Positions 30,906 through 49,813 of a DNA stretch of 64,000 bases are shown piece after piece. The stretch comes from Paenibacillaceae bacterium (GTDB lineage: Bacteria > Bacillota > Clostridia > Lachnospirales > Lachnospiraceae), in contig SVDU01000022.1 in the NCBI GenBank assembly GCA_015057705.1, forward strand, positions 1 through 64,000, written 5' to 3'. Position numbers and translations under genes: made by a program. The notes beneath the pieces were generated by a model. It worked only from the letters and a program-made list of their open reading frames with translations, was not told the DNA's origin and did no database searches. Each line of letters begins with the position of its first letter. The stretch's first letter is position 1.

Positions 30906-30976
30906 AGGGGAATAGTTCAATGGTAGAGCAACGGTCTCCAAAACCGTAAATGGGGGTTCGAGCCCCTCTTCCCCTG
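30906..30976 (+). tRNA. tRNA-Trp (anticodon CCA)
   Basis: The acceptor arms AGGGGAA (30906-30912) and TTCCCCT (30969-30975) pair fully, with discriminator base G at 30976. The anticodon stem ACGGT/ACCGT encloses loop CTCCAAA, giving anticodon CCA for tryptophan. The T arm has loop TTCGAGC. The gene does not encode CCA at the 3' end. It stands alone, with a promoter upstream and a strong terminator downstream. Confidence 0.95.
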
Positions 30977-34487: not shown

Positions 34488-34496
34488 ACCAGTTTT

Positions 34497-36254
34497 TTAA
34501 TTGCTGCGCCGGTTATACTCATCCATTGCGGTTTTTCTGGCAGCTGCCCGGTCTTTTGCGTTCTTTAAATCCACTTCCAGCACCCGGTCATAGCCCAGAC
34601 CTCCCACTGTATCCTGCATATGCTGTAACGCAGAATCAAATTCAGCCTCATCTGCTGCAAAGACCATTTTCCAGGAATCATCCACAATTACTGCCTTGCA
34701 CTGTCCCCGCAGCGTTGTGATGTCGGAGCTCTCCTTCGGCTGAATATAGGAAGTGCCTGGTGCTACCGCAAGAGCTCCTTTCTTTTCCAGTAATTCGATG
34801 GTTGTTTTTGCCCCTTGTGCATACGTCTGCCAGTCAGTATCCAGCTGTGTATGATTCATCTCAAGCACAGAACTCCACATCGTGGTTAAATAAGGCTCAT
34901 TCGTCAGTGGGTCCGTATCCACCAATGCTAACGGTTTATAATTCAAAGCGCTCACACCGTCCTTCCAGCTGCCGCCTCCCCACTCTTCCGGCACGGGCAC
35001 ATCATTGTTAGGAAGAGCCTTCCAGCCATAATCCGTATAAACTGCCTTTTCGTCTTTCATCTCCCAGGTCAGTCCCTTGGGACCTGCGGCGCCGTTGGCC
35101 TGCCCTAACAGTTCCATTCCCTCCGGAGAATACATCCAATCGATAAAATCTGCAAGTCGCTCCGGGTCTTTCGTATGACTGCCGATGGCAATAACAGCCT
35201 TACCGTTGCCCATAGAATAACAGCCATCGGTATAAGGTGCCATGTCTTCAATGAAAGCAGGCATGATGCCTTTTCCTTCTTCCTTTCGTTCCCGTGTATT
35301 ATAGTAGCTCTGCCCCTGCCAGGACCATAAGGAGGTAAGCACCTGACCATCACGGTATTTATCCGATAAAATATCATAGTTCTGAGTTGTGGATTCCGGA
35401 TCGATCAGCCCTTCCTGATTGGCATTAAAGAGAAAATGCAGCGCTTTTACATAATAACTGTCTGAATCAACGATATTCTGGAAGTCACTTCCATCGTATT
35501 TTTCCATTACAAACCCTATTTCCTGATAACCATATAAAGAGGCATAATTCTTGGCAATCACCATCATGCTGTCATCCCAATCCTTAAACAGAGAAAGAGC
35601 ATAAGTTTTCTTACCGGAATCACTCTTAGGTATCTGCTCCTGCAGCTGCTTCATCACAGGTATCATGTCTTCCAGTGTTTTCATTTCAGGGTAACCGATT
35701 GCCTTGTATCCGTCCCAGCGAAGGTAGGGTGCCACCAGCGGCTCAATTCCTTCTGCAGATACGTTGGGGGATTGATTGGAAATTTCACTGGGAATGGCAT
35801 AAATGCCCTCCTTCACCAACCCCTTATTCATATTTAAAATTGCATCTTCATAATTTTTATATACATTTTTATCTTTTAAAAGCGGAGCCATATCCATTAA
35901 AAGTCCGGCTTTTACCATATTTTCAAAACGGCCGCTCTCGGTTTTAGTAATTATTAAATCTCCTAAATTACCAGCTGCGGAACGTGTCTGGAACAAGGTA
36001 TCTCCCCCGCCTGCCACATTGGGAGCAATGATATTTAATTCCATATTGAATTTATCTTTTACAATTTTTGCAAACCATCCGCTCTGGATTCCCTGATAAT
36101 TTGCCAGCGTATCAAATACATCCACGGTAATTAATTTATCATAGCTGCTGTTGCCTGTCGTATTTTCTACAGACGCCTCTTTTTTGCACCCGGCTAAAAC
36201 AGCGGTGACAACCAGGACTGCACACAGGATCACACGGATCTGTTTCTTTCTCAT
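34497..36254 (-). CDS. Extracellular solute-binding lipoprotein, LplA type
   Basis: A 585-residue binding protein with signal peptide and lipobox VLAGC at about residue 22. It is larger than the family 1 proteins elsewhere in the window, as is usual for the LplA/YtcQ group that imports plant oligosaccharides. It has the binding-fold landmarks YTDGCYSMGNGKAVIAIG and DPERLADFIDWMYSPEGME. It is last in the operon permease, permease, lipoprotein, and converges with the two-component genes. The ligand is unknown. Confidence 0.85.
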   Translation of the reverse strand: MRKKQIRVILCAVLVVTAVLAGCKKEASVENTTGNSSYDKLITVDVFDTLANYQGIQSGWFAKIVKDKFNMELNIIAPNVAGGGDTLFQTRSAAGNLGDLIITKTESGRFENMVKAGLLMDMAPLLKDKNVYKNYEDAILNMNKGLVKEGIYAIPSEISNQSPNVSAEGIEPLVAPYLRWDGYKAIGYPEMKTLEDMIPVMKQLQEQIPKSDSGKKTYALSLFKDWDDSMMVIAKNYASLYGYQEIGFVMEKYDGSDFQNIVDSDSYYVKALHFLFNANQEGLIDPESTTQNYDILSDKYRDGQVLTSLWSWQGQSYYNTRERKEEGKGIMPAFIEDMAPYTDGCYSMGNGKAVIAIGSHTKDPERLADFIDWMYSPEGMELLGQANGAAGPKGLTWEMKDEKAVYTDYGWKALPNNDVPVPEEWGGGSWKDGVSALNYKPLALVDTDPLTNEPYLTTMWSSVLEMNHTQLDTDWQTYAQGAKTTIELLEKKGALAVAPGTSYIQPKESSDITTLRGQCKAVIVDDSWKMVFAADEAEFDSALQHMQDTVGGLGYDRVLEVDLKNAKDRAAARKTAMDEYNRRSN

Positions 36255-36268
36255 CTTACCTCTCCTCC

Positions 36269-37159
36269 TTAACCTTTTATAGAACCAATCATGATTCCTT
36301 TTACAAAAAACCGTTGGAATATGGGATAAATAAATAAAATCGGAAGCACTACAATCACCGAAACCGTCATTCGTATGGAGGATGGTGTCTGCCTGCTGGC
36401 AAGAACTGCCCCGCTGATTGCACCTGTCCCTCCGTTTCTCACCATTGCCGCCAGGGAGCTAGCCTGATTAATGTATGTGTATAACAGATACTGCAGAGAA
36501 TACAGTCTTTGATCCGTTACATAGATTAACGTATCCTGAAACGAATTCCATTGAGAAACCGCTGCAAAAATGGCCACAGTCGCCATAATCGGCTGAGCTG
36601 CTGGCAGAATGATCCTTGCAAATACAGTAAAAATTCCAGCCCCGTCAATTTCCGCTGCTTCCTGCAGGGATTTTGGAATTGACTCTATATAAGTTTTTAC
36701 CAGTATAATATAAAACGGCTGTATGATGGTGGGGATTACATACACCCAGAACGAATTAGTCAGATGCAGTGTCTTCATGGTAATGAACATGGGAATCAGA
36801 CCTGCATTAAAGTACATGGTAATTACAAAAAAACGATACCAGAATTTCCGGTGCCACATTTTCTCCTGTGTAAACAGAAAGCCTAGATAAGCCGAGGCAA
36901 ACACGGTACATGCAGTTCCTAAAATCGTCCTGGCAATAGAAACCCCGGCAGCTGCAGAAAGTCCACGCAGTCCCAGCACCTGTTTGTAGTTTTCCAGATG
37001 AAATCCTTTTGGCAGGAAATTAATGAATCCGTTGGCACTTAAATCATTGGCGCTGATGGTGTTGATAATCATGTAATAAAACGGATATGCACAAATCAGT
37101 GTGATGATTCCGAACATCAGATAATTGACAATGTGAAAGATTCTTTCTCTTACTGTCAC
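36269..37159 (-). CDS. Carbohydrate ABC transporter permease (LplC/YteP partner type)
   Basis: A 296-residue permease with six membrane helices and the EAA loop SLQEAAEIDGAGIFTVFARIILP. The N-terminus (TVRERIFHIVNYLMFG) and length are typical of LplC/YtcP proteins. It lies 12 bp after the LplB-type permease and 14 bp before the lipoprotein gene. No ATPase is encoded, so a shared MsmX-like ATPase is assumed. Confidence 0.87.
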   Translation of the reverse strand: MTVRERIFHIVNYLMFGIITLICAYPFYYMIINTISANDLSANGFINFLPKGFHLENYKQVLGLRGLSAAAGVSIARTILGTACTVFASAYLGFLFTQEKMWHRKFWYRFFVITMYFNAGLIPMFITMKTLHLTNSFWVYVIPTIIQPFYIILVKTYIESIPKSLQEAAEIDGAGIFTVFARIILPAAQPIMATVAIFAAVSQWNSFQDTLIYVTDQRLYSLQYLLYTYINQASSLAAMVRNGGTGAISGAVLASRQTPSSIRMTVSVIVVLPILFIYPIFQRFFVKGIMIGSIKG

Positions 37160-37171
37160 GGCTCTTCCCTC

Positions 37172-38104
37172 CTATATAATGGCTTCCCCTCTGGTTTTTT
37201 TGGAAACAAAATTCACAGTAAGCAGGAGGGTGACACTGACCAGGCTCTTAAGCATACTGATGGCAGTTGCCAGTGATAAGCTGCTACCTGTCATACCCAC
37301 GTTATATACGTAAAGATCCAGTACCTGGATATGCGTCTTATTAAAAGAATTCTGGAATACATAATACTGGTCCATACCGTTATTTAAAAAATTGGCAATT
37401 GACAGCATTAACAATACAAAGAACGTAGGAAGCAGACATGGAATCGTAATGTGTTTCATCAGCTGAAACCGATTGGCGCCATCCACACGGGCCGCATCGT
37501 AAAGCTGGGGATCAATCCCTGCAATTGCAGCCAGATACATGATGGCTCCCCAGCCAAGCCCCTTCCAAAGATTCCACATGGTCATCCACAAGTACGTATG
37601 TGTATCACTGTCAAGAAATTTAATTGGTGCCTGAATCATACCGTGACCAGACAAAAAGTTATTGACCATTCCGCTGTCAGTAAACAGGCAGAACGCCACC
37701 GAATATACCAGCACCCAGCTGATGAAATTCGGCAGAGTCGTCAGCGTCTGCACCAGATTTTTAAACCACTTGCATTGTATTTCGTTTAAAAAAACTGCAA
37801 ATCCCATAGGCAGAATTGAAGTTGCAATGCCAAGAAGACTCATAGCAAAGGTATTCTTCATAACCTGTACCATCTGTCCAATCTGTGTCTTGTTCGCAAA
37901 CAGGGTTTTGAACCATTTCCAGCCAACAAAGTCACATTGTGACAGCTTCAGCGGAGGCTTGTAGTCAAAAAATGCGTAAATCCAGCCATAAAGCGGGAAA
38001 TAAGAAAATAGAAAACATAGAATGATAAAAGGCAGAATACAATAGAACAATCTGCGGCTCTGGACCGTGCTTCTTGGAGTTTTTCCGGCTGATAATGATC
38101 TCAT
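37172..38104 (-). CDS. Carbohydrate ABC transporter permease (LplB/YteP type)
   Basis: A 310-residue permease with six membrane helices. The EAA loop is LYDAARVDGANRFQLMKHITIPC, and the segment FLFSYFPLYGWIYAFFDYKP is typical of LplB/YteP proteins. It is the first gene of the cassette and is preceded by a CAGGAGGAA ribosome site. Its upstream region is the left edge of the AT-rich island. Confidence 0.87.
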   Translation of the reverse strand: MRSLSAGKTPRSTVQSRRLFYCILPFIILCFLFSYFPLYGWIYAFFDYKPPLKLSQCDFVGWKWFKTLFANKTQIGQMVQVMKNTFAMSLLGIATSILPMGFAVFLNEIQCKWFKNLVQTLTTLPNFISWVLVYSVAFCLFTDSGMVNNFLSGHGMIQAPIKFLDSDTHTYLWMTMWNLWKGLGWGAIMYLAAIAGIDPQLYDAARVDGANRFQLMKHITIPCLLPTFFVLLMLSIANFLNNGMDQYYVFQNSFNKTHIQVLDLYVYNVGMTGSSLSLATAISMLKSLVSVTLLLTVNFVSKKTRGEAII

Positions 38105-38171: not shown

Positions 38172-38321
38172 CCATCAAAATCAGAGCAAAACTGCCCCAC
38201 TTTTTAGAGATTGGGTCTGAAAGCAGAAGTTACGATACTATTAAAACAGCTTCCTGCTATTACTAAGGAAGCCATTGTCATAAAGTATGTTTAAAACACA
38301 ATTTTCGAGTTTCAATTTTGT
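38172..38321. other. Junction between the Lpl cassette and the AT-rich peptide island
   Basis: Composition drops sharply to AT-rich within this 150-bp stretch, at about 38280. No gene, insertion-sequence inverted repeat or attachment site is evident. One plus-strand reading frame of about 25 codons ends at 38292 (ILLKQLPAITKEAIV within it) and could be a gene remnant or chance. Confidence 0.35.
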
Positions 38322-40031
38322 TCACAAATTAAATAATTCCGAAAATACATTAGAATGATTTTTTAGAAATTCAAAAGTTCCTGAATCAACGATAGTTCCT
38401 GAATCTAAAACAAATATACAGTCACTTTCTGTTATAGTTTGAAGCCTATGACTAATTGAGATCACTATTGCAGATTTGGACAAATTTTTCATAATATTAG
38501 TTAATATTTTTTCGGAAATACCATCGAGATCGGAAGTTATTTCGTCAAAAAGTATAATCTCAGCTTTATGGGCAAGAGCGCGTGCAAAACTTAACTTTTG
38601 ACGCTGACCGCTTGATAAAGAATCTGCTGAAATTTCAGTATATATTCCTTTTGGAAGAGTTGTGATATATGAACTAAGTCCTACCATATCACAGTATTCA
38701 TCTATTACTTTTACATTAATATTTGAGTAAAGTCTTATATTTTCTAGTAAAGAATCTTTAAGAATAAAAGGTTCTTTTTGGACATATGTTATAAGATTAC
38801 GTATATAACCTATATCACATTCTTTATATGAGTATCCATGAATAATAATATTTCCTTTTTGAGGTAAATAAAAACATTGTAAAAGCTTTAAAAGAGTTGA
38901 TTTTCCACTTCCGTTTTTTCCTATAATAGAGTATAAACCTGTACTATTTATAGATAATGATAAATCCTTTATAACATCAAGAGTATCATTATAAGCAAAA
39001 TAGATATTTTCTATTCTCAATTCAAATATTGTATTTTCAGCATCAGTTACATAGGGTTCGTATTTTTGCTCATCAATTTGTAACTCAGTTAATTCATTGA
39101 TCCTTTGTAATGAAATCAAAACATTTTGTTCGTTAAGTTGCACTTTTTGAAGCATGTCAATACTTGTAAAAATCCTATTGATATACATTCCTAAAGTAAT
39201 CATAAGTCCCAGGGTAAGCTTACCATCGCAAACAATTATATTTGCTAAATATAAAAAGCTTACTTGAAAAATAATATTGGTAGCATTATTCAGGAAATTT
39301 ATTGAATTGTCTGCGCTACTTCTTTTTTTTTCAATACTAAATATTTTATCAATTAATTTATAATATTGTGCTTCAATATGAGATTCGATTCTGAACGATT
39401 TTATAGATGGTATATTCTGCAAAATATTTATGGTAAAAGAATTGTATAAATCAGTTAATTCTTGATGTTTTTTATAGATAGACTTTCTTTTGTATTTAAA
39501 ATTTTTATAGATCAAAAGTGATATAGGCAAAAAAAAGAGTGAAAAAATAGTCAATTCAGCATTAATAGATACAGCTAAAATAAGAGGAATAAAAAAATTA
39601 AAAAATATGAAAGAATAAGTAGTTACAATAGATATATCATATTCTATAATAGTGCCCAAATCTGCCGTCAAATGTGCCATCAATTCTCCTATTTCTAACT
39701 TTTCTAATTCCTGGAATTTAGAATGGAGTATTTTATTAAATAAAATACTTTGATATTCTTTAAAAATTTTATTCCCCAATACTTCGGTAATATAACTTTC
39801 AACAGATGATATGATTACTGAAATAAATAACATTAGTCCATAAAGCAGAAGCAAATAGAAAAAAGTCTTACTGCCATTTAAAGAAATGTAATCAATTATA
39901 CGACCATAGAAAACAGGAGTAATACTAGTTATAATTGTTTCAGTAATTATTAGAACTAATAAAATAATAATAGAACAAGTATATCCTTTAAGATATTGAA
40001 ATGCCATTTTTTTTATATTATTAGATGTCAT
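38322..40031 (-). CDS. ABC exporter (fused membrane and ATPase domains) of the peptide island
   Basis: A 569-residue half-transporter. Six membrane helices fill about residues 15-300, followed by an ATPase domain with Walker A IIGKNGSGKSTLLK, signature LSSGQRQKLSFARAL, Walker B IILFDEITSDLD and switch His in ISISHRL. It starts straight into the first helix, so it lacks the N-terminal C39 peptidase that many peptide exporters carry to remove leaders. As last gene of the maturation operon, it probably exports the modified CXXX-repeat peptide or gives self-immunity. The sequence is strongly AT-rich, unlike the sugar permeases nearby. Leader removal must be done by another protease. Confidence 0.85.
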   Translation of the reverse strand: MTSNNIKKMAFQYLKGYTCSIIILLVLIITETIITSITPVFYGRIIDYISLNGSKTFFYLLLLYGLMLFISVIISSVESYITEVLGNKIFKEYQSILFNKILHSKFQELEKLEIGELMAHLTADLGTIIEYDISIVTTYSFIFFNFFIPLILAVSINAELTIFSLFFLPISLLIYKNFKYKRKSIYKKHQELTDLYNSFTINILQNIPSIKSFRIESHIEAQYYKLIDKIFSIEKKRSSADNSINFLNNATNIIFQVSFLYLANIIVCDGKLTLGLMITLGMYINRIFTSIDMLQKVQLNEQNVLISLQRINELTELQIDEQKYEPYVTDAENTIFELRIENIYFAYNDTLDVIKDLSLSINSTGLYSIIGKNGSGKSTLLKLLQCFYLPQKGNIIIHGYSYKECDIGYIRNLITYVQKEPFILKDSLLENIRLYSNINVKVIDEYCDMVGLSSYITTLPKGIYTEISADSLSSGQRQKLSFARALAHKAEIILFDEITSDLDGISEKILTNIMKNLSKSAIVISISHRLQTITESDCIFVLDSGTIVDSGTFEFLKNHSNVFSELFNL

Positions 40032-40066
40032 AAGTATTACTCCAAGTTCTATAGATTATAATATTA

Positions 40067-40354
40067 CTATTGAATTTTTTTGTTTGATACAGTACATGAA
40101 TGAAAATCCATATATAATTCACAATCATTCAGCTTAACGATGTCATATTCTTTACATATATAATCCCAGTGCCTATCAATTTCGCAAGATGTATATTCAT
40201 AATCCGATATAAAACGCTGATACAATTCTTCGTTATGAACTAAAGGATTATTTTCAGATATCAAAATGAGATTTTCCAAAGCAGCCTTTTTACTGGTTAA
40301 ATCTTCAAGTTTTTGAGAATCCTTAGATTTGATAATTACTTTGTACTGTGCCAT
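40067..40354 (-). CDS. Small accessory protein of the CXXX-repeat peptide system
   Basis: A 95-residue soluble protein, with four cysteines in the C-terminal half (TSCEIDRHWDYICKEY, NDCELYMDFHSC). Its first codons overlap the end of the radical SAM gene by 32 bp, so its translation is coupled to the maturase. Size and position match what I recall as the CXXX repeat peptide modification system protein family; this was not checked by search. It may act as a leader-binding (RRE-like) or scaffold subunit of the maturase. That role is inference. Confidence 0.6.
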   Translation of the reverse strand: MAQYKVIIKSKDSQKLEDLTSKKAALENLILISENNPLVHNEELYQRFISDYEYTSCEIDRHWDYICKEYDIVKLNDCELYMDFHSCTVSNKKIQ

Positions 40355-42539
40355 ATTTATTTCTCCCTTTCATTTTAAATCCTAATCTTTCATGTCTTTT
40401 CTTTGAATAATAATCGTAAGGTGTTTCATAAGGAAATGGCGTCAAATCACGATATGGCATAAATTCTCCTTGTGCAAATTCAGTTAGATGATCTCTAAAT
40501 ATTTCAGACTCTTTGTATTCAGCTAAGACTGAAACACATTTATGTTGTGGCGGAATATTTAATTCATCAGTATTTTGTTTATTAGTAATTGCGCACCTTA
40601 CGCAGTGAGTAGAAGGACATTCTTTACAAAGTGGTGAATACTTCAAGGAATATAGTTGCTGATTTTTCACAGTAGGCTTGACATAGCTATTAATATTTCC
40701 GACGGCTTCCTCATTCTTTGAATAAGCTATTGGACAAGTGTAAATTTTGCCGTCTGGTGATAGTGCAAATGTTTTTTCTCCGGCAGAACATGAATCTTGA
40801 CTATCGATGAATAATACGTCTGTGATTTTATTAAACTCTTTTTGATTCCCTGATTTTGTCCAAACATCCAGTAAATATTGGCTTATTTTATTTAATTCTT
40901 CACGATACCTTACTAAATTATCATTGTGACTGCTATTAATCAAATTCAAGTTTACACGGTCAAACTTATTAAGTAATTTTATAATATAAATAGAAAGGTT
41001 GTTAACATCAGACCATTCTACATTTATAATACATTTTTCCTGATTAGTTATAGGAATATCAATGTTGTCTTTATTAAATACCAATATATAATCCTTAAAA
41101 TCTTTTACTTCATCATAAAATTGAGCAGAAATTATATGTTGTATTCTAGACGAGTTAAAGCCTTTAAATAACGAGAAATCAGGATTCGTCGATGAATGTA
41201 TAAAAATTGGACTGTAAAAATTATAAGCACAATATTCTAATCCTCTTTTAATGGTATTAGTATTCATCACCTTAACAGACTCCGTTAATTTTCCATTCGT
41301 ACATTCACAATATGTTGTATAATCATCTGCTAGAATAAAATACATCTTCTGACTTGTATTAACAATTAATTCATCAATAGCTTTTTCGTTATACAGTCGA
41401 TTATAAAAATAGTTATTAGCTCTAACTCTGGCCTTGTGCATGGTACATATGTATTTTGCGCGTTGGAAATTAGTTGAAGTGTCTGCAGTATCATAAGATT
41501 GTGCTTGGCAGTGGGAGCATCCAGTCGCAACTGGACAATTAAGACATTCATCATCACATTGTAACAAATTGGTTGCGACTCTAAAACGTATTACCTTATC
41601 AAAATCAATACCATTGTCAACATTTCCAATTACTATTTCTTTTTTATTTTCCAATGAGTAATCTTTGTATCTAAGGCAAGGATAAATTTTGCCAGTTGGA
41701 CCAATAGCCAGCATAAGCCCTGCACCACAGATCGTTTGCTGTTTCCCTTCTTCTCCCAAGGGATTTCCTAAGCCACTTTCAAAAAAAGTGACAGAGCAGT
41801 CTCTATAACATTCTTTCTCTATCATATAGTCTGCCAAAGATTTTAATTGTTCTTCAAAGATCAAGTCATCATTTTCTAACCATACATTTTCAAAAACGAC
41901 ATTCGCTGAAATGTCTTTGATTCCCAATTTCCATAGGTGAATTATACTTTCTTTTAGTAATGGAAGATCAGCATGTGCAAAAGTAACTTTGGTAGTAGGA
42001 TAAAAATCGTTTATATATTGAGGTATATTTTTTACAATAACTTCGTATGTGCCACTTCCATCAGGAAAAACTCGTTGCATATCATGTTTTTCCTTAGTTC
42101 CATCAAGTGTAATAGTTAAAGATAACTTTTCGCGGTTCTTAGCAATAAACTTTTGGACATCAGGAGATGCATAATTTACTCCATTCGTCGTAATGCTTAT
42201 TCTATAATTCCAATACCATTCACTTTTTTCTATATATGCCTTAAATTTAAAATAGTCGACTATCTGATCAATCAAATTAACTTCGATCATAGGTTCTCCA
42301 CCAATAAATCCCAAAATTATTGCCGGCGGAAACTCTAGTTCATCCGAGAACATATAATCAATAAACTTTTTTGCAACATCAAAAGTCATTACCTTGTTGC
42401 TTTGTTTATGGCAAATATAGCAATACTTGCAGCGCATATTACAATCTTCAGTTACAATGAAGTCCAAAGATTGAGCACCTTCGTTCGCTTTCCATTCATT
42501 AACCTCGTGAGCAAATTGTTTTTCATCAGTGTAACCCAT
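40323..42539 (-). CDS. Radical SAM peptide maturase with two SPASM-like modules
   Basis: A 738-residue protein. Residues 1-375 form a radical SAM enzyme: the 4Fe-4S motif CNMRCKYC (C33, C37, C40), GGEP at 80-83, and a SPASM domain with C271, C288 (GKIYPC), C328, C332, C335, C341, C344 and C365. Residues 376-738 form a second unit with no CxxxCxxC but another SPASM-like set: C584, C602 (GKIYTC), C638, C641, C646, C649 and C668. From memory, these halves match two separate families of the CXXX-repeat peptide system (the radical SAM maturase and the CXXX repeat peptide maturase), here fused. It likely builds thioether or other crosslinks at the cysteines of the 56-residue precursor. Confidence 0.8.
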   Translation of the reverse strand: MGYTDEKQFAHEVNEWKANEGAQSLDFIVTEDCNMRCKYCYICHKQSNKVMTFDVAKKFIDYMFSDELEFPPAIILGFIGGEPMIEVNLIDQIVDYFKFKAYIEKSEWYWNYRISITTNGVNYASPDVQKFIAKNREKLSLTITLDGTKEKHDMQRVFPDGSGTYEVIVKNIPQYINDFYPTTKVTFAHADLPLLKESIIHLWKLGIKDISANVVFENVWLENDDLIFEEQLKSLADYMIEKECYRDCSVTFFESGLGNPLGEEGKQQTICGAGLMLAIGPTGKIYPCLRYKDYSLENKKEIVIGNVDNGIDFDKVIRFRVATNLLQCDDECLNCPVATGCSHCQAQSYDTADTSTNFQRAKYICTMHKARVRANNYFYNRLYNEKAIDELIVNTSQKMYFILADDYTTYCECTNGKLTESVKVMNTNTIKRGLEYCAYNFYSPIFIHSSTNPDFSLFKGFNSSRIQHIISAQFYDEVKDFKDYILVFNKDNIDIPITNQEKCIINVEWSDVNNLSIYIIKLLNKFDRVNLNLINSSHNDNLVRYREELNKISQYLLDVWTKSGNQKEFNKITDVLFIDSQDSCSAGEKTFALSPDGKIYTCPIAYSKNEEAVGNINSYVKPTVKNQQLYSLKYSPLCKECPSTHCVRCAITNKQNTDELNIPPQHKCVSVLAEYKESEIFRDHLTEFAQGEFMPYRDLTPFPYETPYDYYSKKRHERLGFKMKGRNKYGTVQSNYQI

Positions 42540-42591
42540 ATTCTCCCCCTTTATATCTGATCGAATTTGTTCCTTTTGAATAGATATTTAA

Positions 42592-43914
42592 CTAATGTGG
42601 GCATTTAGTATATTTAGTTTCACTTGTTAATGATCCTAATGACATCGTACCACATTGCGAACACCTTTTGGCTGAATAAGATTTAGTCAAACAACTACCG
42701 TCAGAATTTTTAGTATGTTTTTGATAAATCCCATCAACATAAGTATGTTGTTTACATTTTTTTCTCGCGGTTAATTTATTAGTTATTTCATAACATTTCC
42801 CATTTATGTCTGTAAACTGAGAATCGAAAACTGTTTTAGATTCTGGTGAGAATCTTACACTATTTTCATCACCTGGCATAAATGATACAATTTGCTTCGA
42901 GGTATTAAGAAATACTTCTTTAGAAGGCTCTCCTTCCCATATAATTGTATAAGGCTTTTCATAAGCAAAAACAGTAATGCTACTACATGCAATCATTCCG
43001 ATTGAAAGTAAAAAAGCTAATTTTGATGTTTTCTTTTTAGCATGCATAATAAAATCAATCCTTTCTTTAATATATTTTTGACCTTTACTAAAGGAGGTTA
43101 TATATGCTCCTGGATAGCTCATTTTATTTGTTGCCATGTCAATAATTAAATGTCCATATTCTTTTTTTTCATGTTTATTCATAAACTTAGTAACAAACTC
43201 ATCACATGCAAACTCACATGCCGTATCTAAATAAGAGTCTAATATAAACATTAATGGATTAAACCAGTAAATTCCCACAACAATTAAACGTAAAAAGCGG
43301 ATAAGTGAATCATTCTTCTTTATATGATATAGCTCGTGTAAAATAATTAAATCTATTTCGTATAATTCAGCGACCGCTGGTATTACTATAATTGGATCAA
43401 AAACACCAGTAGTAAATGGAGAAACTTCTAAATTGGCAATATAAATATGTATATTTCTTTTAATATTTAGACTCTTTTGATGTTTTTTTAGGATACTCAA
43501 AATATATGTATTGCTATTTTCATGGGCAGTAGACAATATATTATTCCGAAAATCAATTTGTTTCCGTAGATGTCGAGTGAAAAGAACAAGAGAAATAAAA
43601 AACCATGCTAAAAAGATAAACAAATTATATTTATAATGCGAATTTACATAGATCCCGTGTTTAGTAAACATAACAACTTCTGAAGATCCATTTATTAATA
43701 TATCTGATTTGACTTGAAAGGGAAAAAAATATAAGAACAATGTTTGAATTGACAATTTTAGATAAACAAAAGGGGTAATTGATAAAATAAGACATATCTT
43801 TAACAATGAATATCTATATGATTGTAGATATAAATTTTTCTTGAAATGTTCAATTATTAAAAATATTATAAAAAGAATATTACTGGATAATATCATTGTA
43901 ATAACAACATTCAT
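42592..43914 (-). CDS. M56 (BlaR1-type) membrane metallopeptidase with cysteine-rich tail
   Basis: A 440-residue membrane protein. Membrane segments lie near residues 5-22, 38-65, 97-114, 205-225 and 300-320. The zinc-protease motif HELYH is at 193-197, between the third and fourth helix, as in BlaR1/MecR1. No penicillin-binding domain follows. Instead, a tail of about 120 residues, predicted outside, ends in six cysteines and several His (KKCKQH, RCSQC, KCPH), perhaps a zinc or peptide sensor. It starts 9 bp after the BlaI-like gene, forming a sensor-protease/repressor pair. As the exporter has no peptidase, this protease is also a candidate for leader removal, though that is speculation. 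Confidence 0.82.
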   Translation of the reverse strand: MNVVITMILSSNILFIIFLIIEHFKKNLYLQSYRYSLLKICLILSITPFVYLKLSIQTLFLYFFPFQVKSDILINGSSEVVMFTKHGIYVNSHYKYNLFIFLAWFFISLVLFTRHLRKQIDFRNNILSTAHENSNTYILSILKKHQKSLNIKRNIHIYIANLEVSPFTTGVFDPIIVIPAVAELYEIDLIILHELYHIKKNDSLIRFLRLIVVGIYWFNPLMFILDSYLDTACEFACDEFVTKFMNKHEKKEYGHLIIDMATNKMSYPGAYITSFSKGQKYIKERIDFIMHAKKKTSKLAFLLSIGMIACSSITVFAYEKPYTIIWEGEPSKEVFLNTSKQIVSFMPGDENSVRFSPESKTVFDSQFTDINGKCYEITNKLTARKKCKQHTYVDGIYQKHTKNSDGSCLTKSYSAKRCSQCGTMSLGSLTSETKYTKCPH

Positions 43915-43923
43915 ATTTTCTCA

Positions 43924-44283
43924 CTACTCCAATTTATCTAAATACTCCTTTAACTCAATTGCCTCTTCACTTGTTATTTTATCGTTTCCACTTAAGGCAG
44001 TTACAAATTTCTTAAAAGATCCTTCATACATAGTGTCTAATATTTCTTTAGCTTTAAAACGGTCAAATTCCTCTTTTGTATATGCATACATATATAATTT
44101 ATCGTTTTTGACAAGAATACCTTTATCAACCATACGTGTTAAATAGGTATTAATTGTTTGTCTTTTGCTAGATTTTCCACGATTGTTAAAATATTCCCAA
44201 AATTCTGCGCCAGAAAGCCACTGCTTTTTATTCCATAGTAAATTCATAATTTCTAGTTCTGTCTTTGAAAGGTTAAATTTCAT
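43924..44283 (-). CDS. BlaI/MecI/CopY-family repressor
   Basis: A 119-residue winged-helix repressor. The DNA-binding part spans about residues 3-75 (LSKTELEIMNLLWNKKQWLSG; KRQTINTYLTRMVDKGIL), followed by the dimerization helices (FKKFVTALSGNDKITSEEA). The start is set at ATG 44283, because AAGGAG directly abuts the ATG at 44292 and is 9 nt from 44283. It is the first gene of the maturation operon. It probably represses both this operon and the divergent precursor operon through TGTAGTAAT half-sites in the shared control region. Cleavage by the M56 protease would relieve repression, by analogy with BlaR1/BlaI. Confidence 0.88.
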   Translation of the reverse strand: MKFNLSKTELEIMNLLWNKKQWLSGAEFWEYFNNRGKSSKRQTINTYLTRMVDKGILVKNDKLYMYAYTKEEFDRFKAKEILDTMYEGSFKKFVTALSGNDKITSEEAIELKEYLDKLE

Positions 44284-44307
44284 TATGTCCATCTCCTTAA
44301 TATGTTC

Positions 44308-44336
44308 ATATTACTACACCTTTGTAGAAATGTCAA
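44308..44336 (-). promoter_or_regulatory. Promoter and BlaI-type operator of the maturation operon
   Basis: On the minus strand TTGACA (44331-44336), a 17-bp spacer and TAATAT (44308-44313). The whole spacer is filled by the dyad CTACA-CCTT-TGTAG (plus strand 44314-44327), which has the TACA/TGTA symmetry of BlaI/MecI sites. A bound repressor would cover the promoter directly. Confidence 0.75.
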
Positions 44337-44364
44337 TTATAAATAAAAAAGCAACCAAATAAAG

Positions 44365-44418
44365 TTGACAAATATGCAGCATTTATGATACCCTCTAGTT
44401 AAGACACGTTGTAGTAAT
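44365..44418 (+). promoter_or_regulatory. Promoter and second repressor half-site of the precursor operon
   Basis: A perfect TTGACA is at 44365-44370. The -10 is weak (GATACC or TACCCT near 44387-44394). Just after the expected transcription start, TGTAGTAAT at 44410-44418 repeats, in inverted orientation, the sequence found at 44310-44318 in the other operator; ACA-CGT-TGT (44404-44412) gives it a partial dyad. Confidence 0.55.
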
Positions 44419-44461
44419 TGCAGGTTGTAAGCAAAAAAAACAATAGAAGGAGGGAGAATAT

Positions 44462-45727
44462 ATGAATATAAGACTAATAGGGAAGTATGTAATATTAGGT
44501 ATAATTTCATTATGTATTATTTTGGGAGTATTTAATGTAGTTACAAAGGCTGGTATTAATCATATTAATATCTCAAAGTATGATGCTTTATTAAAGTTAA
44601 AATCAGATAATTATATGCAAATGACAATAGAGGAATTTAGAAGTCATGCCTTAGATGTATTGTTTGAGCAGGGTAACGAAAAACAAAATCAGAAGTTGCT
44701 ATTAGAGGCACTGGGGGATGAACAACTTCATGCCACTAGATTTACAGATGCGTCAGCTTTTTTTATACGTAATGTAGTAGTTCCATTAACAGGTGAAAAT
44801 TGGAAAAATGAATTTTTATATGGAGGCGTGGATCATCCCTTTAATAAAGGAAATGGTGTAGTTGAATTCAGAGCAGTTTTAACAATTAAAGATACTACTA
44901 TGAGCATTAGTGATTATCAAAAGATCTACTCTGATCTATATGAATCAATAACAGAATTGCTCGATTCTAAGTCTGATAAAGACTTATCCAATGATGTGTT
45001 AATTTTAAATGAGTTAAAGAGTAAATTATCAAAGTATGCACATGAAATAAACAAAGCAGATAAAGTATCTTTAATAATTAATGATTGTTTCTATATTATT
45101 GAATATGACAACTACAATTCTATAGGTGATTTAATGAAAAAAAATGGCCAAAGTGAAAGAGATTCTAAAAAACTGGCAGCGGATGTAAATAAAGTTCTAT
45201 TTTTAGCGGTCGACGGTTATGAAAGTTTTACATTGGCAGAATATAGAGCTTTCATTGAAAACAAATTAAGTTCAGACTCTTCCCTGAAATCATCAAAAAA
45301 CCGTGTTATGAGAGCAATTAATTCAATTCCGACTAAATTGGATACTAATATTTTGACAGATAGTGAGTTAAAATTCATTTCATATACGTTATCCTGTAGC
45401 ATAGCCGAAACAGCCTATTACGTGGATAAAGTAACTTTACCGAGCTTTGATGATGGTTTTTTTGTAAAATCAGCCTTAGTAGGTGATTTAACATATGTTG
45501 AATATTCCGTACAATACACAGTTAAAGATGAAACCAGACTTACTGTTGGTCAAAGAGATAAGGCTATATTTAGTATTGTTAATGGAATGAAAGAATTTGT
45601 TAAAAATACAAAACTAGATCCAATGGATTCGGCATATATAGAAGAAATGAAAAAAGAACTTAATAGACTTGCAGAAGCTAACTCAAGCAATGACCTTGCA
45701 ATGGAAATTATTTTGTGCACTAATTAA
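44462..45727 (+). CDS. Membrane-anchored protein with a duplicated domain, in the peptide island
   Basis: A 421-residue protein with one N-terminal membrane anchor (about residues 9-28, YVILGIISLCIILGVFNVV) and a large part probably outside the cell. That part is a tandem duplication: about 43-200 and 243-412. Paired segments are DNYMQMTIEEFRSHA with DGYESFTLAEYRAFI, FIRNVVVPL with YVDKVTLPS, and VEFRAVLTIKDTTMSI with VEYSVQYTVKDETRLT. I do not recognise a named family. From memory, related segments occur outside the membrane in some clostridial M56 proteins, so it may be a split-off sensor. It is co-transcribed with the precursor 61 bp downstream; immunity or sensing are possible roles. Confidence 0.65.
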   Translation: MNIRLIGKYVILGIISLCIILGVFNVVTKAGINHINISKYDALLKLKSDNYMQMTIEEFRSHALDVLFEQGNEKQNQKLLLEALGDEQLHATRFTDASAFFIRNVVVPLTGENWKNEFLYGGVDHPFNKGNGVVEFRAVLTIKDTTMSISDYQKIYSDLYESITELLDSKSDKDLSNDVLILNELKSKLSKYAHEINKADKVSLIINDCFYIIEYDNYNSIGDLMKKNGQSERDSKKLAADVNKVLFLAVDGYESFTLAEYRAFIENKLSSDSSLKSSKNRVMRAINSIPTKLDTNILTDSELKFISYTLSCSIAETAYYVDKVTLPSFDDGFFVKSALVGDLTYVEYSVQYTVKDETRLTVGQRDKAIFSIVNGMKEFVKNTKLDPMDSAYIEEMKKELNRLAEANSSNDLAMEIILCTN

Positions 45728-45739
45728 ATGGATTATTAG

Positions 45740-45755
45740 ATAGTCATTTGACTAT
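45740..45755 (+). promoter_or_regulatory. Short hairpin between the anchor-protein gene and the precursor gene
   Basis: ATAGTCA-TT-TGACTAT followed by TTT. It could be a leaky terminator or RNA-processing element that adjusts the amount of precursor message relative to the upstream gene. No T run long enough for full termination. Confidence 0.35.
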
Positions 45756-45788
45756 TTTGATAAAATAATAAAGAAAGGAGAATACTTT

Positions 45789-45959
45789 ATGGAGTTCGGA
45801 AAGAAAAACAGCTTAAGTAAAATGAGTAATATTCAACCATTTGCTTGCAAGGGCTGTGTGGGTAGCTGTGTGGGTACATGTAGTGGAGGATGTGATGGCA
45901 GCTGTAAAGATGGTTGCTACAGAGGATGTAGGAGTACGTGTATTGGCAGTTCTAAATAG
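45789..45959 (+). CDS. CXXX-repeat RiPP precursor peptide
   Basis: A 56-residue peptide, with AAAGAAAGGAG 8 nt before the ATG. Residues 1-19 (MEFGKKNSLSKMSNIQPFA) are a leader-like, cysteine-free segment without a GG cleavage motif. The rest has nine cysteines at 20, 23, 27, 31, 35, 39, 43, 47 and 51. After the first CxxC, each Cys is exactly four residues from the next, giving eight C-x-x-x units rich in Gly and Ser (such as CVGS, CVGT, CSGG, CDGS). Strict period-4 cysteines next to a SPASM radical SAM enzyme point to enzymatic crosslinking. The likely product is an exported, thioether-type modified peptide. A hairpin terminator follows. Structure and activity are unknown. Confidence 0.85.
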   Translation: MEFGKKNSLSKMSNIQPFACKGCVGSCVGTCSGGCDGSCKDGCYRGCRSTCIGSSK

Positions 45960-45989
45960 TAATAATTATTAGTGTTCTTATGAGACACT

Positions 45990-46013
45990 GGGGCAGACAT
46001 TGTTGTCTGCCCC
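45990..46013 (+). terminator. Terminator of the precursor peptide transcript
   Basis: GGGGCAGACA (45990-45999) pairs perfectly with TGTCTGCCCC (46004-46013) around a 4-nt loop, 30 bp after the precursor stop. The T run is weak (GCTTTAC), so termination may be partial. Confidence 0.7.
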
Positions 46014-46063
46014 GCTTTACTGAGCACAACATGTGCGTAATCTTAAGGGTTCAGTCCCCTTAA

Positions 46064-47185
46064 TCAAAGATGAATATCCGCATAATTCAGATAACAATTC
46101 CAGTCATATTCATCCATATCGTGATTTCCTGTCTTATAATGATGCCCGATCCTTCCCTGATAAAGCGGCTGCTCCGGTAAAGGCTTCTTATTGGTCTCCA
46201 GTCCCTCAATTCCAAACAGGCGATATACCGCATCCGCCTGCACCAGAGACTCAAACTGTCCCTCTGGATCTGCCCATTTATCAAAGGTCTTGGAAGAGGT
46301 ATAGATCAGCCTTGGAGCGATTAATCCCAGCAGCATATGCTGGTCAAAGGGAAGTGTTTCTTCCTTATCGATATACTTTTGATAATTTTTGCTAAACCAG
46401 TATGGAAAGCGGGTTAAAATGTCTTTAATTCTCTCGCCCTTTGCTCCTCTGGACAGCGCATCTCCGCTGTTTCCTGCACAGCTGCTGACAGCCATGGCAA
46501 AGCGTTCGTCCTGAGCCGCCCCCCAAAGAGCCGTTTTTCCGCCCCTGGAGTGTCCCACCAACGCCACTCTTCTCTCATCGATCAAAGGCTCTGTCTCAAA
46601 GTAATCCATGATCCGGCTTGCCGCCCAGGACCAGGCGGTAATTGCTCCCCATGCATCGTCAGGCCTGTTGGTTACATACTCCGGAAACAGCCTTGAAAAT
46701 CCAGTTGTAAAGCCTTCCTCATAATCAGGGGATACCTCCTGGGTACGGAAGGCAGCACAGGCATATCCTTTGGAAATTATAGTCTCAACCGGATAAAAGG
46801 GGCTTAAGAAATGCCTTGCAGGATCGCTGTCCTTAATCCCACGATTGCATACGGTCACAAACGCAGGCACTGGCTTTATGGCACCTGTAGGGATGAAAAC
46901 AACGAAACAGAAGCTAAAATGAATTCCCTTCCGGACAGCTAACACCTCCACGGTTTTTCTCACCGCTCTCCCCTGAAGAATCTCCTCAGACTGCCTGGAA
47001 TCAGCAACCCGGATATGAAGTTCCATATCGCTTACATCCGGCAAACGACCGTATTCCTCTTTCTTAAACAGCTCAAGCAGCTCTGGTCTGCGTTTTCTCA
47101 GCCATATTTCCCAATCTGTCACCTCTGTTCCATCCAGGCAAGTCAGAACAGAGGGTACGTTTCTTTTATTTTCAGGCATCTTCAT
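46064..47185 (-). CDS. CE15-type glucuronoyl esterase / alpha-beta hydrolase
   Basis: A 373-residue alpha/beta hydrolase that resembles carbohydrate esterase family 15. The nucleophile Ser lies in VALVGHSRGGKTALW (family form G-C/H-S-R-x-G-K), and the catalytic His probably in GRIGHHYKTGNHDM. CE15 enzymes cleave esters between glucuronic acid on xylan and lignin alcohols or methyl groups. No signal peptide is present, so it would act on imported oligosaccharides. The start is set at ATG 47185, as AAGAAGGAG lies inside the longer frame. It is the last gene after the kinase and regulator, in the operon regulated with the ABC cassette. A role with the GH67 enzyme elsewhere in the window is likely. 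Confidence 0.75.
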   Translation of the reverse strand: MKMPENKRNVPSVLTCLDGTEVTDWEIWLRKRRPELLELFKKEEYGRLPDVSDMELHIRVADSRQSEEILQGRAVRKTVEVLAVRKGIHFSFCFVVFIPTGAIKPVPAFVTVCNRGIKDSDPARHFLSPFYPVETIISKGYACAAFRTQEVSPDYEEGFTTGFSRLFPEYVTNRPDDAWGAITAWSWAASRIMDYFETEPLIDERRVALVGHSRGGKTALWGAAQDERFAMAVSSCAGNSGDALSRGAKGERIKDILTRFPYWFSKNYQKYIDKEETLPFDQHMLLGLIAPRLIYTSSKTFDKWADPEGQFESLVQADAVYRLFGIEGLETNKKPLPEQPLYQGRIGHHYKTGNHDMDEYDWNCYLNYADIHL

Positions 47186-47202
47186 TGGCATCTCCTTCTT
47201 TC

Positions 47203-47976
47203 TCACTTACTGTAAAGTTTGATATCACTTGGTGCATAGCCGAATTGTTTCTTAAACACCTGGAAAAAATAGGAGTAATCACGGTATCCCAGCATATGTG
47301 CCACCTCATTCACCCGGTTCTGTGGGTTCTTAAGAAGAATTCTGGCATTTTCCATTTTTACCATGGTGACGTAATTAACAAATCCAACCCCTGTCTCTTT
47401 CTTAAAACACTTGCTGAAATAAGAGGTGGATATTAAAAGCTCCCTGCAAATATTTCCCAGAGAAATATTATGGTTAATATGCTTGTCAACGTAATCCAGG
47501 GACTCTGAAACTGCAGTGGAATACTCCTGGCTCTTCTGCCTGATAAAGCGGATCCGTTCCTCTAGAGTATCCGGCGTTTTTTCTGCTGCAACCCGTTCTT
47601 TCTTCATAATTGCCCCCACGGCCTTTTCAAGCGCCTGTTCCATCTCTTCGGTCATCACAGGCTTTAAGAGAAAATCGCTGGCTCCATACCGGATTGCCCG
47701 CTGCGCATACTCAAACTGATTGTATCCGGATATAATAATAAACTGCATGTCCTGTCTTTGCTGCTTAATCTTTTCGATAATATCCAGCCCGTTAAATCCC
47801 GGCATCTGGATGTCGATGATTACAATATCCGGATTCTTTTTATGAATCAGCTCCAGACCTGCAATCCCGTCATAAGCCACCCCTGTCACCTGGCAATGAA
47901 ACGATTCCCAGTTAGTGGCTTTCACAATTGCTGTTACTGCTATTTTATTATCATCTATTACTACTACCGAGTACAT
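47203..47976 (-). CDS. AraC-type response regulator
   Basis: A 257-residue response regulator, compact YesN type. The receiver has D8-D9, phospho-acceptor D55 (IVIIDIQMPGFNG) and a conserved Lys (DFLLKPV). The C-terminal 100 residues are two AraC helix-turn-helix units (LGNICRELLISTSYFSKCF; LGYRDYSYFFQVFKKQFG). The start is set at ATG 47976, after AGGGGAGGGGG; the open frame extends to 48075. It lies 20 bp after the kinase gene. It probably activates the ABC cassette and the esterase gene. Confidence 0.88.
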   Translation of the reverse strand: MYSVVVIDDNKIAVTAIVKATNWESFHCQVTGVAYDGIAGLELIHKKNPDIVIIDIQMPGFNGLDIIEKIKQQRQDMQFIIISGYNQFEYAQRAIRYGASDFLLKPVMTEEMEQALEKAVGAIMKKERVAAEKTPDTLEERIRFIRQKSQEYSTAVSESLDYVDKHINHNISLGNICRELLISTSYFSKCFKKETGVGFVNYVTMVKMENARILLKNPQNRVNEVAHMLGYRDYSYFFQVFKKQFGYAPSDIKLYSK

Positions 47977-47995
47977 AACGTTCCCCCTCCCCTTA

Positions 47996-49732
47996 CTATA
48001 ATAAAGGAAACTCCAGTCTGACTTCTGTATAATGAAGATACTCTGATTCGATCCATACACCGTAATCAGGTCCATACATCAGCTGAATCCGATCCTTTAC
48101 ATTCTTAATTCCAATCCGTTTTTTCGCTTCATTGCTCTCAAACAGTGTTGAGATCTTTTCCGCAGGTATTCCAAGCCCATTATCCCATACTTTTATAACA
48201 AGCCTTTCTTCCTCACTATAAACGGAAATACGGATTGTACAAAGTCCAATCTTGGGCTCCATCCCATGAACAAGTGAATTTTCTACAATCGGCTGTAAAA
48301 TGCAACTGGGAACCATCATATCAAGAAGTAAATCATCTACCTCCCACTCCACTTCCAGCCTGTCCGGATAAATATTTTTATAAAGCTCTGTATAATTTTT
48401 TATGTACTCCATCTCTGCATTTAACGTGCAGGTATTCTTGCTTCGCTCTATGTTTCTTCTGAAAAATCTCGCCAGCAGACCGATCAGCCTGCTTACCTGC
48501 TTATCTCCGTTAATTTGTGCGATTCCATGAATGGACTGAAGTATATTAAACAGGAAATGGGGATTGATCTGAGCCTGCAGTTCATGATATTGAAACTCCA
48601 GCAACTTATATTCATTCTGCTGCTGTATCTCCTTCGCACTGCTGATCTGATCCATCAAAGACTGTATGTTGCCCGCCATCTCACTGATATGTTCTGAGAT
48701 GAGATCCATCTGATCGCCTTTTGAAAACGATGTGGGCTCCAGTTCAAATTCACCTCTTGATACGCGCGTAATGTTGCTTAGGAGAATCCGGAGATTGCCT
48801 GCCATATTACCAAACATCAGCCACAAAAAGATGATAATCAGTACAAAGATTAAGAGTCCGATAAAAGATACAAAATAAAGCAAATCAGAAAACCGGCTGT
48901 TCTTTGCCTTTAGATCTACCTCGTGGGCAATTTTAATTCTTCCCCGGCTGACCTGATATTCGGCATATAAATAATTGTCCTTTTCTTCTCTGTGGTCTGC
49001 CCCTGCTTTTAAGCGGTCTCTTTCACTGGTGGTAAATAAAAGATTTCCGTTTATATCATAAAGTGCAAAATTTCCCACTTTACTGCTGTCTATATCCTGA
49101 AAAATCTCTTTTAAAACCGTATTTTTAAGCTCTGCGATCACACAGCCGCTGAATTTCATGGTAGTCTCATCGAATAAATAACGCATCAGGACAATTCCAT
49201 CATTACTGGCACTCCTGGTCCATATGGTATTGCCCGGTCGATGAGACACATCCTCTTTGTTATCATAATACAGCTTCAGAACAGATTCTTCACTGGGTCT
49301 TCCCTCTCTGGGTCTGCCGTCCCTGCATGCCAGATAAACGGTATCGGAACGATCGATTACAGACACCCAGTTGATATCGTAATTGGTACTAAGCATTTCT
49401 TCCAGCTGTTTTCTCAATCTGGGCTTTAAAAACGGGTCAACTGCTTTATCCGGACCTGTAACCGTCCGAAGCATGGGAGTCAGACGCTGATTCGTTGCCG
49501 TTAAAGGAATTGTACCCTCCATGAGTTCCGTTAAAGAGATATCTACATTCCTGCAAATCTGTTCCGTTAATGTGTCGGACTGATAGGTAAGTTCTGTCTT
49601 AAACCATTTGCATGTCACGTGGTAAATACAAATGAGAGCAGCCAGAAATGTAAGTCCCAGCAATGCCGTCACTGCAATCATTTTAAAATAAAGCGTCTTC
49701 CTGAACCGGATGCGTTCTTTGGCAGATTCCAT
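47996..49732 (-). CDS. YesM-type sensor histidine kinase
   Basis: A 578-residue membrane kinase. One membrane helix near residues 15-40, a roughly 230-residue extracellular dCache-like sensor, a second helix near 275-300 (LLYFVSFIGLLIFVLIIIFL), a HAMP linker, the phosphoacceptor His in QINPHFLFNILQSI, and an HATPase domain (VWDNGLGIPAEKI). The start is set at ATG 49732, with GAGGGGG upstream; the frame opens at 49774. It has its own consensus promoter in the gap after the ABC permeases. It likely senses the sugar bound by the adjacent lipoprotein. Confidence 0.88.
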   Translation of the reverse strand: MESAKERIRFRKTLYFKMIAVTALLGLTFLAALICIYHVTCKWFKTELTYQSDTLTEQICRNVDISLTELMEGTIPLTATNQRLTPMLRTVTGPDKAVDPFLKPRLRKQLEEMLSTNYDINWVSVIDRSDTVYLACRDGRPREGRPSEESVLKLYYDNKEDVSHRPGNTIWTRSASNDGIVLMRYLFDETTMKFSGCVIAELKNTVLKEIFQDIDSSKVGNFALYDINGNLLFTTSERDRLKAGADHREEKDNYLYAEYQVSRGRIKIAHEVDLKAKNSRFSDLLYFVSFIGLLIFVLIIIFLWLMFGNMAGNLRILLSNITRVSRGEFELEPTSFSKGDQMDLISEHISEMAGNIQSLMDQISSAKEIQQQNEYKLLEFQYHELQAQINPHFLFNILQSIHGIAQINGDKQVSRLIGLLARFFRRNIERSKNTCTLNAEMEYIKNYTELYKNIYPDRLEVEWEVDDLLLDMMVPSCILQPIVENSLVHGMEPKIGLCTIRISVYSEEERLVIKVWDNGLGIPAEKISTLFESNEAKKRIGIKNVKDRIQLMYGPDYGVWIESEYLHYTEVRLEFPLL

Positions 49733-49756
49733 AATATAACCCCCTCGTCTTTTCCC

Positions 49757-49785
49757 ACTATAGCAACTTGGCAAAAGAATGTCAA
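49757..49785 (-). promoter_or_regulatory. Promoter of the kinase-regulator-esterase genes
   Basis: On the minus strand TTGACA (49780-49785), a 17-bp spacer and TATAGT (49757-49762), 24 bp before the kinase start. It separates the two-component genes from the ABC cassette upstream. Confidence 0.75.
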
Positions 49786-49813
49786 CGCCGGATCATAGGC
49801 AGATTTAACCAGC

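Follow-up and report, generated by a model that had tools for sequence, protein, structure and literature searches.

The 64,000-nucleotide window analysed here (positions 1 to 64,000 of contig SVDU01000022.1, GenBank assembly GCA_015057705.1, from a Paenibacillaceae bacterium that GTDB places in the Lachnospiraceae) contains an inserted block of seven genes, acquired recently. We interpret this block, with moderate confidence, as a horizontally acquired locus for a CXXX-repeat peptide, that is, a ribosomally synthesized and post-translationally modified peptide (RiPP), under the control of a switch of the BlaR1/BlaI type to which a free-standing sensor has been added. Since the biosynthetic genes fit curated NCBIfam models for CXXX-repeat systems, the RiPP class is already known. 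As judged from sequence comparisons, what is new is the control arrangement, formed by an M56 metalloprotease, a BlaI-like repressor and a separate 421-residue protein (p421), and this novelty rests on one locus.

A previous examination of the same DNA without database searches (the sequence-only reading) had described seven genes in AT-rich DNA. All seven open reading frames (ORFs) were confirmed at their positions in the window, none of them interrupted, and the GC content of the block is 29.5% versus 43.2% in the remaining window, where 81 overlapping stretches of 7,850 bp range from 41.8 to 45.4%. The block is an insertion. The surroundings (18 kb) were compared with 25 same-genus genomes, the window's genome among them, 18 of which gave a match. 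In eight same-genus genomes the two flanks adjoin on one contig, with a spacer of 60 bp in G400 and G401, 47 bp in G413, and about 120-1037 bp in G417, G420, G416, G415 and G407. The remaining matched genomes have the flanks apart or a single flank among the matches listed, and G411 has the M56-BlaI part only. The island borders, read in G400, G401, G413 and G417, lie at window positions 38209-38212 and 46063-46064, and the empty site appears by eye as a short hairpin-like spacer. The joint lack of the seven genes at the empty sites fits their arrival in one piece. Integration bounded by a tRNA gene or by repeats was rejected, since the tRNA-Trp gene at 30906 is the sole one found in the window and no direct repeats of at least 8 nt were found between the end stretches (180 and 130 bp), which share two inverted repeats of 8 nt. 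None of the seven block genes (0/7) encodes a recombinase. By eye, the flanks (32925-38104 and 46064-50638) are apparently ordinary carbohydrate-uptake DNA with ABC (ATP-binding cassette) transporter genes and AraC-type response regulators, together with a glucuronyl-esterase-like hydrolase (PF22244).

The assignment to a radical S-adenosylmethionine (SAM) RiPP locus of the CXXX-repeat type, made in the sequence-only reading, was borne out by profile searches against NCBIfam and Pfam. The maturase reached 467.3 bits with TIGR04115 (cut-off 350) and its C-terminal module 181.4 bits with TIGR04119 (cut-off 150), the precursor reached 21.7 bits with TIGR04114 (cut-off 20), and the 95-residue protein came close with TIGR04116 (49.0 bits, cut-off 50, E 5e-13). 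For p421 there was no NCBIfam match and no Pfam match above cut-off. The 56-residue precursor does show the period-4 cysteines described for it, with nine Cys at residues 20, 23, 27, 31, 35, 39, 43, 47 and 51, the eight from residue 23 on at period 4. Four residues after each Cys there is Cys in seven cases, Val in one and Ser in one, and in 0/9 cases Asp or Glu. The precursor contains SLSKM, and the leader piece xSK[IM] is, by eye, common to many Bacillota precursors. Peptidase_C39 was absent from the 13 Pfam families listed for the exporter, and a solved structure considered as a relative of the 95-residue family was dropped (best E 0.25, not significant). The same parts as in known CXXX-repeat systems stand side by side here: the precursor with its repeat, the radical SAM and C-terminal modules and the presumed small partner. 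The block very probably makes and exports a crosslinked Cys-repeat peptide. Such peptides are known but have been studied little; the literature searched yielded no paper on CXXX-repeat peptides by name or on TIGR04114, TIGR04115, TIGR04116 or TIGR04119. The models reportedly go back to the line of work of Haft and Basu 2011.

Relatives of the maturase were collected by scanning one genome per species; 148 were confirmed, and the best 80 were kept and joined by five viral contigs, giving 85 loci. Flanks of 10 kb were requested, yet many of the contigs were shorter. A CXXX ORF was defined as having at most 260 aa and at least three C-x3-C steps within 6 kb of the maturase, the opposite strand serving as control. 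Of the 80 relatives, 75 had such an ORF on the maturase strand and 8 on the opposite one, and stricter rules sharpened the difference (69 versus 2 with at least four steps, 65 versus 0 with at least five). Maturase homologues never accompanied by a Cys-repeat peptide, which by the sequence-only reading would have refuted its interpretation, are thus not what these loci show. The 95-residue family was found at 74/80 loci (E<1e-4). Sampling of whole genomes showed the system to be rare: TIGR04119 exceeded its cut-off in 1/398 genomes of the phylum and 3/392 of the order, the window's own counted in each.

By record title, the 80 relatives comprise 31 Bacillota, 40 Bacteroidota with Fibrobacterota-type and Chlorobiota, seven Planctomycetota, one Aminicenantes and one further locus. 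Among the Bacillota, 27 maturases are fused and 4 split, 20 loci have a high-scoring ABC relative and three have a precursor leader of the twin-arginine type. The Bacteroidota group shows 39 split and one fused maturase, 31 twin-arginine-type leaders and no ABC relative, while all seven Planctomycetota maturases are fused, with five twin-arginine-type leaders and again no ABC relative. The Aminicenantes maturase is fused; the one further locus has a split maturase and a twin-arginine-type leader. With 27/31 fused, 20/31 having an ABC relative and 3/31 having the twin-arginine type, the layout of the window (fused maturase, short leader, ABC exporter) is, on these counts, the ordinary Bacillota form. 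The suggestion that a fused maturase marks a new subtype had therefore to be abandoned, since this form is usual in Bacillota and Planctomycetota (7/7). An example is already annotated, as 'radical SAM peptide maturase, CXXX-repeat target family', on the conjugative plasmid pAPRE01 of Anaerococcus prevotii (NC_013164.1). This 728-aa fused protein is 46% identical over 95% to that of the window and is likewise followed by genes for a small hypothetical protein and an ABC protein. Unlike that of the window, the pAPRE01 locus lies beside class III lanthipeptide genes, with genes for a histidine kinase and a response regulator annotated just upstream in the circular record. In the Bacteroidota-group and Planctomycetota loci (L083-L143), where twin-arginine-type leaders are usual and an ABC relative was not found, TatA/TatC-like ORFs were seen by eye downstream of the CXXX system in L062. 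Taken together, this suggests twin-arginine (Tat) export of an already crosslinked peptide in those loci.

What sets the window apart, by these comparisons, is the control unit. No homologue of M56, BlaI or p421 was detected by phmmer (E<=0.01) among the ORFs at the 85 loci, and home-made hidden Markov models for M56 and BlaI (E<=1) yielded nothing there except one M56 match with E 0.021 at L134, so that M56/BlaI was rejected as a standard component of CXXX loci. In this respect, as in the kinship of p421 with M56 sensor regions, the sequence-only reading was supported further than the sequence alone could show. The M56 protein has HELYH at residue 193 and, as read with its hydropathy, a Cys-rich C-terminal tail of about 125 aa. 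As in the BlaR1/MecR1-BlaI/MecI switches, an M56 protease stands beside a BlaI-type repressor (PF05569 and PF03965, both above cut-off), with palindromic sites in the common promoter region. However, M56 scores 101.7 bits with the BlaR1 model NF000326 (cut-off 400) and only over residues 3-316, the M56 part; in Pfam it has no fused penicillin-binding sensor domain. Further differences are the short Cys-rich tail, the separate sensor-like protein and the position beside RiPP genes, with a lactamase among 0/7 genes. BlaR1/BlaI genes are also reported on C. difficile plasmids, where they are said to confer no resistance (PMC6807378). No title on M56/BlaI control of RiPP or radical SAM loci was among the matches listed in the literature searched.

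The free-standing sensor is proposed from the relatives of p421. Its description as a duplicated-domain membrane protein was confirmed: the two halves align with a local score of 69, reached by 0/500 shuffles (plain BLASTP of the halves, E 0.20), and a single hydrophobic segment spans residues 2-32. At E<=0.01, p421 was matched in 13 of 299 family genomes, the window's counted, and the neighbourhoods were read in 10 of the 12 others. All six matches with E<1e-4 fall into M56 proteins, at their C-terminal region, and a BlaI gene was detected adjacent to five of them; in one alignment, p421 residues 38-414 pair with residues 344-722 of an M56 protein of 742 aa (E 7.5e-18). Two weaker matches also lie in M56 proteins, one of which has a further p421-like protein directly behind it, so that an M56 protein with p421 similarity occurs in 8/10 regions read. 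The other two regions hold a separate 264-aa protein without M56 and one apparent chance match. Plasmids, phages and the remainder of the same genome yielded no relative of p421 at E<=1, and the idea of relatives there was rejected. By homology, p421 is related to M56 sensor regions; a region of sensor type that these relatives carry within M56 stands alone in the window, as a protein anchored at its N-terminus. A sensor-type domain could also act as a decoy, and p421 might then be an immunity protein that captures the peptide at the cell surface after export, with M56 sensing by its own tail and M56-BlaI controlling peptide and immunity genes jointly. The membrane anchor, the precursor gene 61 bp away and the fact that relatives of the window M56 type manage without p421 would agree with such a role. 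Nevertheless, the best relatives of p421 are regions of M56 proteins, none of them within a CXXX locus, and we consider immunity unlikely.

The seven genes form two divergent rows that have one common control region of 169 bp between blaI and p421 (Table 1). The gaps of 52 bp between the M56 and maturase genes and of 61 bp between the p421 and precursor genes, and the overlap of the maturase gene with that of the 95-residue protein, suggest two divergent operons, blaI-M56-maturase-95 aa-ABC on the minus strand and p421-precursor on the plus strand. In the control region, the first candidate operator has the form TTACTACA-N4-TGTAGaAA (44311-44330) and overlaps the spacer and -10 element of the TTGACA-17-TAATAT site for blaI, and the second has the form TTAaGACA-N3-TGTAGTAA (44399-44417); ATTACTACA and TGTAGTAAT make up a perfect inverted pair of 9 nt. 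Two sites of the same form were found at the BlaI-M56 locus of the same-genus genome G411. The arms match at 15/16 and 14/16 positions in the window and at 14/16 twice in G411, and the score of the best site in each was never reached in 200 single-base shuffles. Over the whole window, the N4 pattern with at most three mismatches has two matches, a number reached in 3/100 shuffles, and the N3 pattern has one, reached in 10/100. As a general feature upstream of ten other BlaI genes the pattern was rejected, eight being at null level (0.17-0.99) and two borderline (0.035 and 0.07). A plus-strand TTGACA seen by eye at 44365, upstream of the second candidate operator, is absent from the sites given by the promoter scan. 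Two BlaI proteins of C. thermocellum are reported to need, apparently strictly, a target with two pairs of inverted repeats; their half-site is different (PMC8457756).

This layout also bears on a rival view, in which M56, BlaI and p421 make up a signalling cassette unrelated to the CXXX locus that travelled inside it and has no control over its genes. In favour of this, M56-BlaI pairs occur in G411 and other members of the family where CXXX genes are missing, and the three genes were not found at the other CXXX loci. However, CXXX genes lie on both sides of the three, along both divergent rows and at the short distances given above, and no terminator-like sites were found in the M56-maturase or p421-precursor gap, so that we regard an independent cassette as quite improbable. 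That M56 is a RiPP leader peptidase, instead of or besides a repressor-linked protease, is very improbable: its active-site motif is present and the ABC protein lacks a peptidase domain among the families listed, but M56 stands beside BlaI with operator-like sites, like signalling pairs, and no M56 (E<0.02) was found at the other CXXX loci.

Several observations weigh against a BlaR1/BlaI-type switch with an extra sensor at the CXXX locus. Promoter-like sites are not enriched in the region (49 versus a shuffle mean of 53.1), and a weak internal one lies ahead of the precursor (45737-45766). The N4 pattern has a further match with three mismatches at 24521, the second candidate operator is not significant alone because 10/100 shuffles have such a match, and the pattern was derived from the window itself, G411 being related DNA. 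As for p421, its identity to the sensor regions is only 19-24%. At E<=1e-40, 10 of 397 family genomes, counting the window's, encode M56 proteins of the window type, and in G411 such a protein is 49% identical to that of the window. A p421-like ORF was found in 0/10 regions (nine genomes) around these relatives, even at E 10, and the idea that p421 regularly accompanies such M56 proteins was therefore rejected. In G411 the divergent gene encodes a 258-aa protein without similarity to p421, and kinship between the two was likewise rejected. The Cys-rich tail is common to the M56 type in the same ten regions, of which L225 is broken in two. Since the tail is conserved and p421 is missing from the ten regions, the window M56 may sense without p421. 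Moreover, TIGR04115 gave sub-threshold matches only, none above cut-off, in six genomes with related M56 proteins (0/6). Because the three genes were not found at the 85 loci either, the association of M56/BlaI/p421 with CXXX genes is limited to one locus. As this M56 type occurs elsewhere with its own tail, without p421 and, in six genomes, without TIGR04115 above cut-off, the M56/BlaI unit can by these comparisons be separated from CXXX biosynthesis. In the window, p421 may have been added to M56 rather than detached from it.

Under the switch that we favour, BlaI dimers on both palindromes would keep both units off. The N-terminus of p421 would serve as anchor with the duplicated domain outside, where an external signal would be sensed and passed to the M56 protease, which possibly senses too, via its own Cys-rich tail. 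The signal to M56 would lead to loss of BlaI repression; in BlaR1, the signal is relayed by proteolysis. Once expressed, the precursor would be bound by its leader and receive Cys-linked crosslinks over the length of its CXXX repeat. The radical SAM module would install these, with assistance from the 95-residue protein and from the SAM-less second module, whose cluster-type Cys are conserved, and the ABC protein would export the product. A more far-reaching version is possible but doubtful. In it, p421 would detect either the crosslinked CXXX peptide after export or damage at the target of that peptide in a self-sensing circuit, with the M56/BlaI relay controlling peptide, sensor and all biosynthetic genes, and the second half of CXXX maturases would be a SAM-less pseudoenzyme supplying auxiliary iron-sulfur clusters for crosslinking.

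The maturase itself was described as a two-module radical SAM enzyme. The architecture stood, with a radical SAM/SPASM module at about residues 1-376 and a SAM-less pseudo-radical-SAM/SPASM module at about residues 377-738, but only the first has the CX3CX2C motif at the SAM position (residues 33-40). The spacing of this motif recurs at residues 328-335, within the SPASM part of the first module, and is absent from the second, where SPASM-type Cys are retained. Alignment A2 of second modules combined 55 of 70 candidates with the window (56 in all), after nine longer proteins lacking the boundary motif were dropped; alignment A4 comprised 49 of 72 and the window. In the 56 second modules, eight Cys are invariant (window residues 411, 584, 602, 638, 641, 646, 649 and 668), seven of which give a SPASM-like pattern. 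A pattern test found no CX3CX2C within the first 200 residues of second modules in split form. The second-module profile matched PDB 5wgg, which we take to be the SCIFF maturase CteB, with E 6e-5 over the whole chain and 0.0032 for the SPASM part alone; the barrel part aligned in order, but was not significant alone. Profile-profile comparison of second with first modules gave a probability of 97.1% (E 6e-11) in local and 98.3% (E 2e-13) in global mode, each a single comparison. In the 5wgg and first-module comparisons, residue 411 aligns with the third Cys of the radical SAM motif. The second half thus looks like a degenerate radical SAM/SPASM copy without usual SAM binding, which may carry auxiliary clusters.

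Because the maturase is related to PapB and SCIFF maturases, the product is by analogy most likely a thioether-linked peptide of the ranthi- or sactipeptide type, which may act against neighbours or as a signal. With these ranthipeptide maturases it shares a related radical SAM/SPASM module, 5wgg being the sole solved relative at E<=0.01; it differs by the second SAM-less module and the 95-residue partner, and it stays under the cut-off of the PapB-type model NF047865 (196.9 versus 340). PapB joins Cys to Asp or Glu within CX3D/E motifs (PMC9413430). In the window precursor none of the nine Cys is part of a Cys-X3-Asp/Glu motif, so that, going by its sequence, the acceptor must be a residue other than Asp or Glu.

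Table 1. Features of the inserted block and its control region (window coordinates).
Feature	Position	Strand	Evidence
Inserted island, 7,850 bp	38213-46062		flanks contiguous in eight same-genus genomes
ABC exporter, permease and ATPase, 569 aa	38322-40031	-	PF00664 and PF00005 above cut-off
CXXX repeat peptide modification system protein, 95 aa	40067-40354	-	TIGR04116 49.0 bits, cut-off 50
Fused CXXX maturase, 738 aa	40323-42539	-	TIGR04115 467 bits; TIGR04119 181 bits
M56 (BlaR1-type) membrane metalloprotease, 440 aa	42592-43914	-	PF05569 141 bits
BlaI/MecI-like repressor, 122 aa	43924-44292	-	PF03965 63 bits, cut-off 22.6
Promoter-like site of minus-strand unit, TTGACA-17-TAATAT	44308-44336	-	10/12 matches
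Candidate BlaI operator 1, TTACTACAccttTGTAGaAA	44311-44330		palindrome; counterpart in G411
Candidate BlaI operator 2, TTAaGACAcgtTGTAGTAA	44399-44417		palindrome upstream of plus-strand unit; counterpart in G411
p421, separate protein, 421 aa, N-terminally anchored, predicted duplicated M56-type sensor domain	44462-45727	+	similarity to M56 C-terminal regions
CXXX-repeat precursor peptide, 56 aa	45789-45959	+	TIGR04114 21.7 bits, cut-off 20

Further features were noted in the related loci. Behind the palindromes of G411 (L056), a 32-codon ORF (11116-11214) was seen by eye, followed by the 258-aa protein (11230-12006), and a tyrosine-recombinase-like ORF lies near the BlaI-M56 locus of this genome (L047:579-845, by eye). 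In G1083, a lone TIGR04119-like protein (L230:12352-13464; 107 bits, cut-off 150) is encoded about 2.8 kb behind a BlaI-M56 pair; it was rejected as a second co-occurrence, TIGR04115 not being above cut-off in that genome. Two CXXX loci (L058 and L060) lie on mobile-looking DNA: that of G633, by eye near conjugation-type genes and with its maturase in two ORFs, and that of the conjugative pAPRE01. The viral contigs from IMG/VR (L144-L148) have a TIGR04115-related radical SAM module, the second module not being found in them, and long CXXX-repeat ORFs are nearby in L144-L146. Finally, a Cys-rich repeat protein of the C-x-C-x-S-R-T type is located between radical SAM enzymes in L059 (7103-10816) and L005; its neighbours in L059 resemble phage tail genes by eye, and it is possible that it is a radical-SAM-modified structural protein.

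The window offers a compact and intact seven-gene version of the CXXX-repeat system with a defined control region, in which chemistry and inducing signal are directly testable. The conservation of a SAM-less module raises the question of why these maturases have a second set of SPASM-type Cys. A free-standing M56-type sensor, if true, would mean that BlaR1-type signalling can accept input from a separate protein.

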